NCBI GenBank assembly: GCA_030154085.1
Contig: JASKKR010000021.1
Coordinates: 1-51,662, forward strand
Direction of reading: 5' to 3'
DNA length: 51,662 nt
DNA from: Candidatus Cloacimonadota bacterium
GTDB lineage: Bacteria > Cloacimonadota > Cloacimonadia > Cloacimonadales > Cloacimonadaceae
Shown here piece by piece: positions 16,796-25,077 of this stretch (position 1 is its first letter; the number at the start of each line of letters is the position of its first letter). A model generated the notes under the pieces. The model ran no database searches. It was not told the origin of the DNA and saw only the letters and a program-made list of their open reading frames with translations. A program made the translations under genes and the position numbers.

Positions 16796-17911
16796 ATGAA
16801 ACAAATTATACTTGCAATGCTTTTGATGCTGCAGGTCATAGCTGTGTCTGCATTGAACATTGAAATTAGGGAGGAAGAGCTTCGTTTTGGCATCCCAGAA
16901 GTAGAGATGGATGGCATTCCTTATGTCGGGGTTGATGATCTTAGCCCTATCCTGAAATGCATCAATAAACAAGATCGGCAAGATCAAAGACTATATCTAC
17001 ATATCTATGGCGAGACCTTCATATTTTTAGAGGATAGTTCCTATTATAGCTACAAAATTGATTCATATAACATGCACTATGCACTCAAGCGCATTGGAAG
17101 CCAATATTTTTTGCCGAGGGTATTTTTAGTTGAACATCTGCCTATGCACTTTGCTGAAGAAGTGAGATATGAAAACGATACTCTGTCTGTCAAAAAACCG
17201 GTTGATCATAGCGTGCGGAGAATAGTGATAGATCCCGGTCACGGCGGTAGGGATCCTGGAGCGATCGGGAAAGTACTCGGAGTGCATGAGAAGGACGTAA
17301 ATTTGGCAGTATCGCTAAAGCTCAAAGCTCTCTTAGAACGTGAGCTGGGGGTTACAGTTTTGATGACACGTGAGGATGATAGTTTTGTCTCGCTAAATGA
17401 TCGAACCCGTTTCGCAAATGAAAATAAGGCAGATCTCTTTATAAGTATCCATACAAATGCGTCCAAATCCAGGAGCTCTCAGGGTACTGAAACCTATTAT
17501 CTTTCCACAGCGATGACTTCAGATGCCAGAGCGGTCGAGGCCTTGGAAAACCAAGTGGTAGACCTATATGAAGGCGGGGCGTCCGCTCGCAGTGTCTATG
17601 ATGGTTTGGATTTTATCCTCAGTGACCTGAGCCAGACAGAGCATCTTCAGAGTAGCAATGAATTGGCAAGCAGCGTTCAGCAAAATATTATTGCTGGAGC
17701 CAGAACATATGACCGGGGGGTTAAGCAGGCAAACTTCTATGTTCTTCGTGGTGCTTTTATGCCGTCTATTCTCGTGGAACTTGGTTTCATTTCCCATCCT
17801 GAAGAAGAACGACTTTTGATCAATGAAGAATATCAACTGCGCTTGGCAAGAACCATTTTTGAGGGTATCAAACGCTTTAAATATCGCTATGACAGAATCA
17901 GGAATACATGA
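16796..17911 (+). CDS. N-acetylmuramoyl-L-alanine amidase (Amidase_3)
   Basis: The 371-aa exported protein has a signal peptide (1-19), an N-terminal region of about 115 residues that may bind the wall, and a C-terminal Amidase_3 domain: VIDPGHGGRDPGAIG (H149), E165, SIHTNAS (H219) and ILVELGFISHPEE with the catalytic Glu. It cleaves the amide bond between MurNAc and the peptide stem in peptidoglycan. I chose the ATG at 16796 (AAGGAA about 9 nt upstream) over 16727, which would overlap the previous gene and hide the signal peptide. Its stop overlaps the kinase start by 4 nt. Confidence 0.92.
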   Translation: MKQIILAMLLMLQVIAVSALNIEIREEELRFGIPEVEMDGIPYVGVDDLSPILKCINKQDRQDQRLYLHIYGETFIFLEDSSYYSYKIDSYNMHYALKRIGSQYFLPRVFLVEHLPMHFAEEVRYENDTLSVKKPVDHSVRRIVIDPGHGGRDPGAIGKVLGVHEKDVNLAVSLKLKALLERELGVTVLMTREDDSFVSLNDRTRFANENKADLFISIHTNASKSRSSQGTETYYLSTAMTSDARAVEALENQVVDLYEGGASARSVYDGLDFILSDLSQTEHLQSSNELASSVQQNIIAGARTYDRGVKQANFYVLRGAFMPSILVELGFISHPEEERLLINEEYQLRLARTIFEGIKRFKYRYDRIRNT

Positions 17912-18690
17912 AGAAATATAAATGCAGAAAGCATCATAACAAATCTGGGAATATATCACAACCAATGAATGTCAATGCGATAGATGAAAGTTGCGAGGAA
18001 GCAAAGAATGTTTTTATTCGCAATATAAGCCATGAGATTCGCACTCCGATGAATGCTATCATGGGCTTTGCGCAGATGCTCAAACATTCTGGACTTAATC
18101 CCCAACAAGTAGACTATGTAGATGTAATTTTGGATAGCGGGAATAAGTTGCTCTCTATCTTGGAAAATCTTTTGGATCTTTCTAATCTGCAGTTGGGAAA
18201 TGTGCATGTGAATGCTGCGCGATGCACGCTGGATAGTTTTTTCAGACGTATTTGGCAAGCTTATGAGCCGGCAATCATAGCCAAAAATCTGGAACCAAGG
18301 CTTATTCTGCCATCGAATCTACCCACTGTATTAGTAGATTGTAACAAACTGCAGCGAGTTTTGGATTTTGTTTTATCTAATGCGGTTAAATTTACTGATC
18401 AAGGCTATGTGTCCCTGAAAGTGGAATATAGTGTGCGTGAAGAAGGTGGATATTGGGTGGATATCTATGTGGAGGATAGTGGTTGTGGCATTGCAGAGGA
18501 ACGAATGCAGCATATCTTTGAGGCATTTGAACAGGGGGATAAGAGTCTGACACGTTCTTATGAAGGTTTGGGATTGGGGTTAGGGCTTTCCAGTCGGATC
18601 GTGGAACTCTTAGGAGGTGAGATCTCGGTCAGCTCAGTGCCGAATAAAGGAAGTTTATTCCATATCCGTGTGCCGGTGGAGAGAGCTTGA
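17908..18690 (+). CDS. Soluble histidine kinase without sensor domain
   Basis: The 260-aa protein is only a kinase core: a HisKA helix with FIRNISHEIRTPMNAIMGF (phospho-acceptor H42), then a HATPase domain with the N box (LSNAVKFTD), G1 (VEDSGCGI) and G2 (GLGLGLGLSSRIVELLGG). There is no transmembrane segment, PAS or receiver domain, and no cognate regulator is adjacent. Input must come from a partner protein or from the short basic N-terminus. It sits between an amidase and a DUF512 protein with overlapping codons at both ends. Confidence 0.9.
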   Translation: MKKYKCRKHHNKSGNISQPMNVNAIDESCEEAKNVFIRNISHEIRTPMNAIMGFAQMLKHSGLNPQQVDYVDVILDSGNKLLSILENLLDLSNLQLGNVHVNAARCTLDSFFRRIWQAYEPAIIAKNLEPRLILPSNLPTVLVDCNKLQRVLDFVLSNAVKFTDQGYVSLKVEYSVREEGGYWVDIYVEDSGCGIAEERMQHIFEAFEQGDKSLTRSYEGLGLGLGLSSRIVELLGGEISVSSVPNKGSLFHIRVPVERA

Positions 18691-20977: not shown

Positions 20978-21865
20978 ATGAAGATCTCGTGCAGCATTGG
21001 CATAATTGTCCACAATGAAGAAGCAAACATCCTGCATCTTCTGGAAGCTATCTCTGCCCAAAGACTTAGTCAGGTGGAGATTCGAGAAGTAATTGTTGTC
21101 TCCAGTGCAAGCACTGATGATACGGATGATATTGTTCGGAGATATGCCGCAGATCACCCTCAGGTCAAGCTATTAACTCAAGCAAAACGAGAAGGGAAAG
21201 CTAGTGCCATCAATCTATTTTTGCAAGAAGCTTCTGAAGAGATTCTGGTAGTGGTCTCTGGAGATGTGATCCCTTCCAAGGATACCATCGAAATCTTAGT
21301 TTCTGCCTTTGAAGACCCCACGATCGGTGCAACAGGAGGAAGACCAGTCCCAGTGAATCCACACGATAGCTTCATCGGCTACGCTGTGAACCTACTCTGG
21401 CGCCTTCATCATCATATGGCTTTGATTTCTCCCAAGCTTGGGGAGGTGATTGCGTTTCGTAAAGTTATGGAGAGTATTCCATGTGAGTCAGCCGTCGATG
21501 AAGCCAGCATTGAGGCTATTATCAAATCACGAGGGCTTAAGCTAAAATACCTTCCCAAAGCAATTATCCAAAACAAAGGACCTGAAAATATCAAGGACTT
21601 CATCAAGCAGCGACGCCGTATTCAAAATGGACATCTTTGGCTGCAGAAAAAGCAAAACTACAAAGTGGCATCTCAGGATAAGAGCATCCTTTTCAACCTG
21701 TTGAAACGGGAATTGCGGGATAATCCCAGAGATATTATTAGGATAATGGGCGTGATAGCCTTAGAAGTATACTGCCGTATATTAGGGAGTTGGGACTTCT
21801 TTATCCGTGGCAAAAACCCATTTATTTGGGAAATATCACATTCAACCAAAGCTCTTAAAAAATAA
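20978..21865 (+). CDS. Family 2 glycosyltransferase
   Basis: The 295-aa protein has a GT-A fold start (SIGIIVHNEEANILHLLEAI), REVIVVSSASTDDTDDIV, the metal-binding region VVVSGDVIPSKD, an acceptor-site acidic segment AVDEASIEA and a QRRRIQNGHL variant of the QxxRW motif seen in processive synthases. There is no long membrane region; one weak hydrophobic helix lies near the C-terminus. It probably transfers a sugar from a nucleotide donor in envelope glycan synthesis; donor and acceptor are unknown. The SPASM radical SAM gene follows after 9 nt. Confidence 0.85.
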   Translation: MKISCSIGIIVHNEEANILHLLEAISAQRLSQVEIREVIVVSSASTDDTDDIVRRYAADHPQVKLLTQAKREGKASAINLFLQEASEEILVVVSGDVIPSKDTIEILVSAFEDPTIGATGGRPVPVNPHDSFIGYAVNLLWRLHHHMALISPKLGEVIAFRKVMESIPCESAVDEASIEAIIKSRGLKLKYLPKAIIQNKGPENIKDFIKQRRRIQNGHLWLQKKQNYKVASQDKSILFNLLKRELRDNPRDIIRIMGVIALEVYCRILGSWDFFIRGKNPFIWEISHSTKALKK

Positions 21866-21874
21866 AGGATATAC

Positions 21875-22957
21875 ATGCTAAAGATCTTGTTTCGCATCAT
21901 CGGATATTGGTTTATGAAACATCTTGGCTTTCCGCGCTTATTACCGATGAATTATACGGTTAGCCTCCTATATACCTGCAATTCACGTTGCAATACTTGC
22001 CGCATCTGGAAGAAAAAAGCTGATAATCTTAGTGTTGAAGAATATAAAAAAATCTTTCGAAGTGTTGGGAAGAGTCCATATTGGATCACTTTTAGTGGGG
22101 GAGAGCCTTTTCTTAGGCGTGAAATAGTGGAGATTGTCTCAGAAATATACAAGATCTCACGTCCTCGAATTATAAATATTCCGACCAATGGACTTCTGGT
22201 AAACACCATCGTAGAAAAGACAGAGCAGATTGCCAAAGCATGTCCTAAAGCCCAGATTATCATAAATGTCTCGATTGACGGCATTGAAGCGCAGCATGAC
22301 GAGATTCGTAATGTTCCTGGAAACTACAAGAAAGCCGTCTCTACCTTCAACAAACTCAAAGCTTTACAATTGCCTAATCTTAGTGTCGGGATCCATACTG
22401 TTATCTCAAAATACAATGTCGATCACTTTTTCTCGATCGCCAATGAGCTCATGCGTCTTCAACCCGATAGCTATATCACCGAAATTGCTGAAGAGAGGGT
22501 GGAACTTGATACAATAGGTTTGGATATCACTCCAGGTCGTGTGGCGTATAAATCAGCCATAGATTATCTCATTCATAGGATCAAAAACGAAAAGTACAAA
22601 GGCATGAACAAGATCACCATGGCGTTTCGCATCGAATATTACGATCTTGTCAAGAAGATCTTGCGCGATGAAAAGCAAGTAATCCCTTGTTATTCTGGAC
22701 TTGCTTCATGCCAAATTTCTCCTGATGGCAAATTGTGGTCTTGTTGCGTCAAAGCAAATTCCTTAGGCAGCTTGAGAGAGAATAAATACAAGTTCTCAAA
22801 AGTTTGGTTTTCAAACAAGGCCAAGGTCGAACGCAAAAGCATCCATCATGCTGAATGCTGGTGCCCTCTTGCTAATGCTTCATACACAAACATGCTGATG
22901 AACATCCCTACCCTCTTGCGAGTGACTTATCGTAGTTTCATTAAATGGTGGAATTGA
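21875..22957 (+). CDS. Radical SAM/SPASM protein
   Basis: The 360-aa protein has the radical SAM motif C35-x3-C39-x2-C42 (CNSRCNTC), FSGGEPFLR, and a SPASM-like C-terminus with cysteines in PCYSG, ASCQISPDGKLWSCC and ECWCP, which should bind extra Fe-S clusters. Such proteins modify peptides, sugars or lipids. The N-terminal hydrophobic, basic segment (about 1-25) suggests membrane contact. Its place after a glycosyltransferase suggests envelope work. No precursor peptide is visible nearby. Confidence 0.87.
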   Translation: MLKILFRIIGYWFMKHLGFPRLLPMNYTVSLLYTCNSRCNTCRIWKKKADNLSVEEYKKIFRSVGKSPYWITFSGGEPFLRREIVEIVSEIYKISRPRIINIPTNGLLVNTIVEKTEQIAKACPKAQIIINVSIDGIEAQHDEIRNVPGNYKKAVSTFNKLKALQLPNLSVGIHTVISKYNVDHFFSIANELMRLQPDSYITEIAEERVELDTIGLDITPGRVAYKSAIDYLIHRIKNEKYKGMNKITMAFRIEYYDLVKKILRDEKQVIPCYSGLASCQISPDGKLWSCCVKANSLGSLRENKYKFSKVWFSNKAKVERKSIHHAECWCPLANASYTNMLMNIPTLLRVTYRSFIKWWN

Positions 22958-22958
22958 T

Positions 22959-24368
22959 ATGATAGCACTCGAGAGTACCCATGCACAATCCCCATATAGC
23001 TTTATAGATACTAAATTTTCTCATGATGGGCGCTTTGGATGGATTTTAGCCATGTGGCATCCACAGGAGCACTCTGCCTTAGAAGAATTGGGAGCGGAGC
23101 TGCGCTTGGCGGTTCGCAATTCCGAAGCTGCAACCGTGAGTAAGGTGGAAGTTGAAAAATGGCTCAAGGATTTTATGGGAGATCTCCATTGGAAGATGCA
23201 TGCCCTATTGCGCAAGACTGATCTATCGGAAAAGGGGCTCTCTGTATTTTTTGGGATTATCTATGACCACGAGCTGTTTTTTGTCCATTTTGGTCGCATC
23301 TTTTGTGCCCTTTCAGACGGCAAAAAACTTAGATTCTTAGGACCCAATCATCGGGATCTGAGGATGCAGTCTCTGGAAAAGCTTAATCTCTTGGGCTTAG
23401 TAGATCAAGACATCAAGGTTACTGTGCGTCGGGTTCTAATATCAGAAAAGCATCTATTTGTGGTTTTGAGTGGCAATCTAGGGGATAAGGTTTTTGAGAC
23501 TCTGAATGATCTGGGGACTCTTAGTCAATATATTGAAAGCTTTTCTGATTCTGAAAATCCTCTTTGGCTCATTCTCAGAGGCAAGGCTCGTCTAATTAAG
23601 GCTCGCCGTAAAAAGCTTAACAGATTGCAAATCAGCTCGATTGTCATGCTCATTATCACCATTCTAGCCACCCTCTATGTAGCTTTCGGCAACCGATTTT
23701 TAGATCAAGCTCTCCATCGCACTAGGATCAGTGTCAAAAGAAATCGTACTCTCAGACTCGACCAGATCCCGAATAATCTATCTGTCGAAACGCAAAACTT
23801 CCTTAAATACCTGGAGCGGATTGTCAATCTCCCTGCCCGCAATATTGAACTGGACATCATATGGAGCGCCACTATGCCCTACCAAGTTACTAGCGCCCCT
23901 GTGTTTAGCATAGATACTATATTTCTTGCTGCAGATAACAATCTCATTGCTTTTGATAAAAAAACTCGTGAGCTAAAGTGGGAAAAGTCCTTTGATGCCA
24001 GGATAAATAGTATTTACTTCGCTGATAACGTTTTGGTTAGTTGTCTGGAGAACGAAACTGGATATGGATTCCGTGAGGATGGAAGAGAAGTCTGGCAGAT
24101 GAATCTGAGCATTCCTTATATGCGACCTGGCAGTCTAGCGCCAAGTCGGGTTGGTCCTGAGGATGACCCTCGCCTGGATAGGGCGATAACCGTTTTCCCC
24201 TCAGCAAAGTTTCTCTGGGTAATTGATGTCGTTCGCGGCGAGAATCTATCCACGATCACGTTTAAGGATGATATTAGAAGCATCTCTTCCTATGATAGCT
24301 ATGCAAATTGCTTCTATGCTATTGTAGATGATGGGCTCCTATGCATTCATCTGAACATTGCAAACTGA
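22959..24368 (+). CDS. Degenerate PP2C-like domain, one membrane helix, PQQ-like propeller
   Basis: The 469-aa protein splits in two. Residues 1-200 have the rhythm of a PPM/PP2C phosphatase: LSVFFGIIYDHELFFVHFGRIFCALSDGKKLRFLG mirrors the segment that usually ends in GDSR, and LFVVLSGNLGDKVFETL mirrors the LCSDGL motif. The metal-binding Asp residues are replaced, so it is likely inactive. After a basic stretch comes one membrane helix (about 225-243), then an extracytoplasmic domain with PQQ/propeller repeats (IFLAADNNLIAFDKKTRELKW and so on). It could pass a signal across the inner membrane. The phosphatase likeness is my pattern match, not a search result. Confidence 0.62.
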   Translation: MIALESTHAQSPYSFIDTKFSHDGRFGWILAMWHPQEHSALEELGAELRLAVRNSEAATVSKVEVEKWLKDFMGDLHWKMHALLRKTDLSEKGLSVFFGIIYDHELFFVHFGRIFCALSDGKKLRFLGPNHRDLRMQSLEKLNLLGLVDQDIKVTVRRVLISEKHLFVVLSGNLGDKVFETLNDLGTLSQYIESFSDSENPLWLILRGKARLIKARRKKLNRLQISSIVMLIITILATLYVAFGNRFLDQALHRTRISVKRNRTLRLDQIPNNLSVETQNFLKYLERIVNLPARNIELDIIWSATMPYQVTSAPVFSIDTIFLAADNNLIAFDKKTRELKWEKSFDARINSIYFADNVLVSCLENETGYGFREDGREVWQMNLSIPYMRPGSLAPSRVGPEDDPRLDRAITVFPSAKFLWVIDVVRGENLSTITFKDDIRSISSYDSYANCFYAIVDDGLLCIHLNIAN

Positions 24369-24375
24369 GGACAAT

Positions 24376-25077
24376 ATGCGGGGTATGACCATCGAGCATC
24401 AACGGGGATATCTCAAAACTATCTTTTGTATTATTTTCTTTCTTTGTACTATAGCTATGATTTATGGACAACAAAGCCTGGTGAAGACTGGCTTTGCACG
24501 TCTGCAATATGATGGTGGAGGAGATTGGTACAATGACCCTGAAGTCCTGCCAAATCTCGCTAAATTTGTAAACCAACACCTTGGTTCCTCGATTCCTATT
24601 GATCAAAGCGTAGTTCGTGCCTCAGATCCGCGTCTGTTTGATTACCCGTTTGTATATCTGACAGGTCACGGCAATATCCATTTTTCTGAGCAGGAATTGC
24701 GCAACCTGCGTAACTGGATGTTGCGCGGCGGTTTCCTCTATGCGGATGATGATTATGGTATGGATGAGAGCTTTAGGCGGGAGATTAAGCGGATCTTTCC
24801 TGAACGAGAAATGATCGAAATAGATTCTCGTCATACTCTTTTTTCTTCATACTTTGATTTTTCTGATGGTTTACCGAAGATTCATGAGCATGATTCTGGT
24901 GATCCGCAGGCGTTTGCCCTATTTGATGATCATGGTCGCATGATGATGCTCTACACTTTTGAAACTAACATTAGTGACGGATGGGCAGATCCTGATACGC
25001 ACGACGATCCTCCCGAAATTCGCGAACTCGCCCTTCGTTTTGGGTTAAACATAATTCACTACATAATGGCGGAATAA
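24376..25077 (+). CDS. DUF4159 domain protein, exported
   Basis: The 233-aa protein has a signal-anchor or signal peptide (hydrophobic stretch about 15-30) and a DUF4159 domain: FARLQYDGGGDWYNDP, FVYLTGHGNIHFSEQELRNLRNWMLRGGFLYADDDYGMD, and a C-terminal ALRFGLNIIHYIMAE. The fold resembles class I glutamine-amidotransferase-like domains that occur beside MoxR/Bat-type envelope operons, though none is present here. I chose the ATG at 24376, 5 nt after GAGG, over 24358 inside the previous gene. The next start codon follows its stop directly. Confidence 0.85.
   Translation: MRGMTIEHQRGYLKTIFCIIFFLCTIAMIYGQQSLVKTGFARLQYDGGGDWYNDPEVLPNLAKFVNQHLGSSIPIDQSVVRASDPRLFDYPFVYLTGHGNIHFSEQELRNLRNWMLRGGFLYADDDYGMDESFRREIKRIFPEREMIEIDSRHTLFSSYFDFSDGLPKIHEHDSGDPQAFALFDDHGRMMMLYTFETNISDGWADPDTHDDPPEIRELALRFGLNIIHYIMAE

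Follow-up and report, generated by a model that had tools for sequence, protein, structure and literature searches.

What is the role of a membrane protein whose inner half has a phosphatase fold with most of its metal ligands replaced, and whose outer half is a propeller? The question is raised by the ORF at positions 22959-24368 (+ strand, 469 aa) of the window, i.e., the whole 51,662-nt stretch of Cloacimonadota DNA that was analysed. A first-pass annotation had read the protein as an inactive PP2C domain joined through one membrane helix to an outside PQQ-like domain. It had likened the protein to a transmembrane pseudophosphatase receptor, with the adjacent DUF4159 gene as a possible partner. 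The ORF starts 1 nt past the stop codon of a radical-SAM gene. Matches to its protein were found in 107/124 genomes searched within Cloacimonadota, and therefore the gene is regarded as real. In a scan of genome contigs, two relatives at 66% identity were found, both in Cloacimonadota MAGs. The gene is spread over most genomes of this little-known phylum. The features of the locus are given in Table 1.

Table 1. Features of the pseudophosphatase-like ORF and its neighbours (window positions).
Feature	Position	Strand	Basis or occurrence
GT2 glycosyltransferase gene, precedes the radical-SAM gene within the window's order	20978..21865	+	Pfam Glycos_transf_2
Radical-SAM gene, constant upstream neighbour	21875..22957	+	Pfam Radical_SAM; 70/72 loci
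PPM/PP2C-fold domain (residues 1-212), predicted cytoplasmic, most metal ligands lost	22959..23594	+	AlphaFold2, VIA-align, ligand columns
H34, motif 2 Asp position (DGxGG)	23058..23060	+	hhalign register, counts; 0/65 acidic
R113, motif 5 Asp position (GDSR)	23295..23297	+	hmmsearch and hhalign alignments, counts; Arg/Lys 64/65
G172, motif 8 Asp position (SDG)	23472..23474	+	Directly after model strand 166-171, counts; 0/65 acidic
E199, motif 11 Asp position (DN)	23553..23555	+	Before model strand 202-208, counts; acid 28/63 ungapped
Single membrane-spanning helix predicted at residues 222-243, with the N side inside	23622..23687	+	Model helix, hydropathy and charge
Helical, low-confidence linker, residues 244-294	23688..23840	+	pLDDT <50 at 262-293
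Predicted outside BamB/PQQ-like partial propeller, residues 295-469, ~four blades	23841..24365	+	PQQ_2, BamB profile, model strands, propeller rows Z ~15
DUF4159 gene, start codon uncertain	24358..25077	+	Pfam 7e-66; neighbour only in the window's family

The fold of the N-terminal half was searched by sequence and by structure. No match of the domain was found in Pfam or NCBIfam, and the PP2C family was not among the 12 Pfam families matched by 51 members at E 0.1. In hmmsearch of PDB sequences, Stp1-type PPMs came at the top with E ~0.05, with unrelated matches alongside. By hhalign, the domain was aligned to nine real PPMs with E 0.028 and a probability of 1.8%, over residues 25-132 only. 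Judged from sequence, the PPM link lies near noise, and because of the weak hhalign result it is structure prediction that carries the fold claim. The AlphaFold2 model of residues 1-212 showed pLDDT 95.4 and pTM 0.92. It was made with no templates from a 51-row alignment, i.e., 51/65 sequences, with 13 close relatives and L046 omitted. In VIA-align, 353 chains were matched by this model with Z of at least 2, and the best 50 of them were PPM-fold proteins, most by title and a few, i.e., effector and stressosome entries, presumably so. The best match was 2pk0 (S. agalactiae STP), with Z 19.1, rmsd 3.2, 203 aligned residues and 15% identity. In the full-length model (pLDDT 84), residues 1 to ~210 were matched to PPM proteins and residues ~295-466 to propellers. 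A PPM topology over the whole N domain is predicted by the model and the structure comparison. Structure prediction and fold search of both halves had been proposed as the check on the first reading; the N-terminal half returned the PPM fold and the C-terminal half returned propellers.

The metal site was compared with that of active PPMs, in which motif 5 holds the third-metal Asp while the binuclear-metal ligands are at motifs 2, 8, and 11, according to PMC12088040. Real PPMs from Cloacimonadota showed Asp at all four motif positions (9/9). All 65 N-domain sequences of the protein family were counted, with motifs 2 and 5 registered by hhalign and motifs 8 and 11 solely by their place beside model strands. 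In this register, motifs 2 and 8 were never acidic, and motif 5 was Arg in 62 sequences, Lys in 2 and Asp in 1, the sole Asp being that of the most degenerate member (L046). The G-R of HFGR was aligned to the G-D of GDSR in both the hmmsearch and the hhalign alignments. The motif 11 column held 28 acids, 12 of them Asp, among 63 ungapped sequences, with Glu in the window protein, and this ligand appears only partly lost. The replacements named in the first reading, i.e., HFGR for GDSR and SGN for SDG, were borne out at motifs 5 and 8, and they extend to the orthologues of the window protein. To these the loss at motif 2 is added, and motif 11 is not cleanly lost. Many N-domain sequences also carry acids at positions 17 or 19; because of these and the motif 11 acids, some metal binding may persist.

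The flap, measured from R113 to G146, has 33 residues in 54/65 sequences and 31 in another 8. The real PPMs of the phylum have 49 residues there (9/9), i.e., the flap is shortened by ~16 residues. Near-invariant residues of the 65 sequences are S95 (65), G112 (64), G146 (64), W78 (63), and R113 (62). The ligand loss also occurs in the ten loci sampled outside the window's order, in other families of the class, and so it probably predates the split of the sampled families of the phylum. Close pairs gave N-domain dN/dS of 0.03-0.17 in the 8/10 with measurable dS, the two pairs with saturated N-domain dS being left out of this range; the C domain was similar. Selection on the N domain is purifying, with no decay. 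An active PPM phosphatase needs Asp as metal ligand at motifs 2, 8, and 11. This set was looked for in the protein family and not found, for which reason the protein was not filed as a phosphatase. By its modelled fold, by the loss of catalytic residues in the orthologues too and by purifying selection, the domain is a predicted pseudophosphatase.

Between the two halves, a single helix was modelled in the membrane. Hydropathy of 48 full-length sequences, the window protein included, gave one segment above the cut-off in 46/48 and a second one near residue 450 in 2. More net positive charge was found on the N side of the helix in 48/48 (mean +5.2 vs +0.7), by which the PPM half is predicted to face the cytoplasm. 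The propeller half scored 27.6 bits with PQQ_2, i.e., at the Pfam cut-off. Its profile, built from an alignment of 40/70 C-domain sequences, was matched to BamB with E 1e-13 as the best-scoring solved relative, and was also matched to the PQQ propellers of the membrane kinases 7eq5 and 7dxn. PQQ-type blade repeats were found by Pfam, by profile and in the structural rows. The propeller region has ~175 residues and ~four blades and falls short of the usual full propeller; eight blades are possible through a dimer. The single helix and the outside PQQ-like domain of the first-pass annotation are thus both upheld. Judged by architecture and topology alone, the protein is of receptor type, i.e., an outside binding-type domain, one helix and a signalling fold inside.

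Gene order around the ORF was compared in 72 loci, one per genome, from 72/107 matching genomes, with the window excluded. These were 34/48 matching genomes of the window's family and 38/59 others; L031 and L032 were dropped as copies of L005 and L004. A radical-SAM open frame lay upstream in 70/72 loci, and both misses were at most 282 nt from a contig end. In four loci of another family (L063, L064, L065, and L067), the gap between this frame and the study-gene frame was 181-323 nt. The radical-SAM protein was found in 111/124 genomes of the phylum. It was present in 101/107 genomes with the study protein, and ten genomes carry the radical-SAM gene with no match to the study protein. It has distant likeness to SkfB and to cytosylglucuronate decarboxylase.

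The GT2 gene was placed before the radical-SAM gene in 60/62 loci of the window's order and in 2/10 loci of the other families of the class. The two misses in the window's order had less than 850 nt upstream of the study gene, and in L062, L064, L065, and L066, from another family of the class, no GT2 gene was found before the radical-SAM gene despite room for it. Its protein is distantly like the solved GT2 6yv7 (E 3.7e-16). Since only 2/10 loci outside the order have it, the GT2 gene is an order-level neighbour, and the constant neighbour is the radical-SAM gene. The whole gene block is located in a ribH-nusB run. Elsewhere in the window, at 17908-18690, a 260-aa ORF resembling a histidine kinase was seen by eye beside an amidase-like gene; it has no evident sensor region.

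The occurrence of the two halves was examined genome by genome. Both halves were in one place in 83/107 genomes, including G059 and G076 with interrupted frames. In three genomes they were separate adjacent genes (L056-L058). Only the TM-propeller half was matched in 18/107 genomes, and the N domain was not found at E 0.01 in the 10 of these 18 that were searched. G044 also matched there only, but it was not counted among the 18, since its frame (L046) includes a weak N domain. G077, G082, and G102 gave short-stretch matches only and may be truncated. The N half stood alone in three genomes, i.e., G035, G058, and G091, and no convincing C half was found elsewhere in them. Short C-domain matches occurred in G035, G058, G075, G100, and G105, reaching E 1e-6 in G100 and G105, and these two were not counted. 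Among ten gene-lacking loci examined, the gene was absent from an otherwise intact block in 8, and the other two end at a contig edge.

A natural empty site was observed in L104-L109, L111, and L112, in which a Nudix-like gene comes immediately after the radical-SAM gene; the Nudix and ValS names of the genes after the block were given by eye and are presumed.

Both halves were in one frame in 10/10 loci of the other families of the class, so the fusion is probably ancestral and the loss derived. Halves kept always together, which we took as the mark of an obligate relay, were not observed. Because the gene is split, reduced to one half or absent in some genomes, the module is accessory and either half can occur without the other, which weakens the case for an obligate receptor relay. 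The receptor comparison of the first-pass annotation therefore holds for the architecture and fails as an obligate relay between the halves.

From these results, we tentatively favour, at somewhat short of an even chance, a membrane-anchored pseudophosphatase that serves as adaptor or sensor for a radical-SAM/GT2 pathway. The cytoplasmic PPM domain would not hydrolyse phosphoesters by the PPM mechanism and would instead use the old substrate face to bind a partner; Arg113, near-invariant and located where the metal site was, would suit an anionic group there. An envelope component would be bound by the outside propeller. Both halves would then act as an accessory adaptor or sensor, by which the radical-SAM/GT2 pathway is placed or tuned at the inner membrane. 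The pathway is probably an envelope glycolipid pathway, the word glycolipid being taken from the distant GT2 match. Since the radical-SAM gene was kept in several lineages from which one half or both were lost, the module would adjust the pathway and would not be an essential subunit of it. Here we infer the partner, the ligand and the direction of regulation, whereas computed results stand behind the fold, the loss of the site, the topology, the linkage and the modularity.

Several observations weigh against this adaptor or sensor role. Genes that are neighbours throughout one phylum owe this in part to common descent, and because of this and of the location in the ribH-nusB run, joint function may not follow from the adjacency. 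The GT2 gene is absent despite room in four loci, the radical-SAM gene is separated from the study gene by the wider gaps given above in four loci of that family, L064 and L065 being in both sets, and the ten genomes with the radical-SAM gene and no study-protein match have the pathway gene without the module. A more specific and rather improbable form of the idea is a two-sided gauge. In it, the PPM metal site would be rebuilt around Arg as an anion pocket for a phosphorylated intermediate that the radical-SAM/GT2 pathway makes, and the outside half-propeller would read the finished envelope product. The two halves of such a gauge could be separated, and each could serve alone or be lost.

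For the fused form, the chief alternative is a transmembrane pseudophosphatase receptor with no special link to the radical-SAM or GT2 genes. A ligand signal from the propeller would cross the helix and alter what the pseudo-PPM domain binds, e.g., a kinase or phosphoprotein. Because the GT2 gene is not constant outside the window's order, confidence in the adaptor or sensor reading was lowered and that in the receptor was raised, and we regard the receptor as possible but doubtful. The fused arrangement in 83/107 genomes, the fixed topology, the profile matches to the propeller kinases 7eq5 and 7dxn and the four protein-kinase-like matches in the window's genome speak for it. Against these stand the halves found without each other in several genomes and the constant companion, i.e., the radical-SAM gene. 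In the same genome, PF13672 had no match and the SpoIIE-type PF07228 had one.

It is unlikely that the N domain has remained an enzyme, be it one of different chemistry, one with fewer metal ligands, or one that needs a partner for activity. Purifying selection, the invariant S95, G112, and R113, the acid at motif 11 in 28/63 and the acids at 17 or 19 would agree with such an activity. However, motifs 2 and 8, which are core ligand positions according to PMC12088040, were acidic in 0/65, and the flap is shortened.

Still less probable, and only slightly credible, is the proposal of the first reading that the adjacent DUF4159 protein is the partner. The DUF4159 gene follows the study gene in 34/34 loci of the window's family but in 0/38 loci of other families, of which four had less than 900 nt of downstream sequence. 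It is carried by 111/124 genomes of the phylum, and in 48/48 out-of-family genomes holding both, the two genes are on different contigs. By this linkage the partnership was rejected and is largely refuted as a phylum-wide function, and the gene is probably not part of the module. The term DUF4159 was not found in the open-access literature searched.

That the N domain is a decaying relic without function is hardly believable, since the lost catalytic residues and the genomes in which no N domain was found would fit decay, but the reading was rejected on the dN/dS of 0.03-0.17, and the invariant residues and well-formed model also oppose it.

The locus has meaning in two respects. A phosphatase fold that appears dead is kept phylum-wide under purifying selection, and its fission and loss variants at one locus make a comparative system at the membrane. 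In addition, a radical-SAM/GT2 pathway that has yet to be characterised in Cloacimonadota is indicated by the locus.

The study protein was finally compared with known systems. The bacterial PPM/PP2C proteins, i.e., STP of S. agalactiae, Stp1 of S. aureus, PstP and SpoIIE, share the same whole-domain fold with Z 16 to 19. In contrast to them, the study protein has no acids at motifs 2 and 8, has Arg at motif 5 and has the shorter flap. A hydrophobic stretch after the PPM domain was also seen by eye in real Cloacimonadota PPMs (L078-L086, e.g., L083:1378-2616 (+)). In the open-access literature searched, the PPM pseudophosphatases with described roles are eukaryotic, and a bacterial transmembrane pseudo-PPM was not found there, which is weak evidence of its absence from print. 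PHLPP2 and TAB1 are eukaryotic proteins with a PPM fold, an altered metal site and no activity, and for PHLPP2 a scaffolding role on membranes was proposed (PMC12002173). Zinc bound at an M2-type site is also reported for PHLPP2. The study protein resembles PHLPP2 and TAB1 in its predicted PPM fold with an altered metal site. It differs in that Arg replaces Asp and the chain spans the membrane, whereas PHLPP2 and TAB1 carry other accessory domains.

For the propeller half, BamB is an eight-bladed lipoprotein, whereas the study propeller is tethered and partial. In RqkA-type kinases, a membrane helix lies between the kinase and propeller domains. RqkA (DR_2518) is a PQQ-stimulated Ser/Thr kinase, as described in PMC11007091. 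RqkA and the other propeller kinases, like the study protein, combine a signalling-enzyme fold with a PQQ-type propeller in one chain. The RqkA type is an active kinase, whereas the study protein has a predicted pseudo-PPM domain, ~four blades and a different gene neighbourhood.
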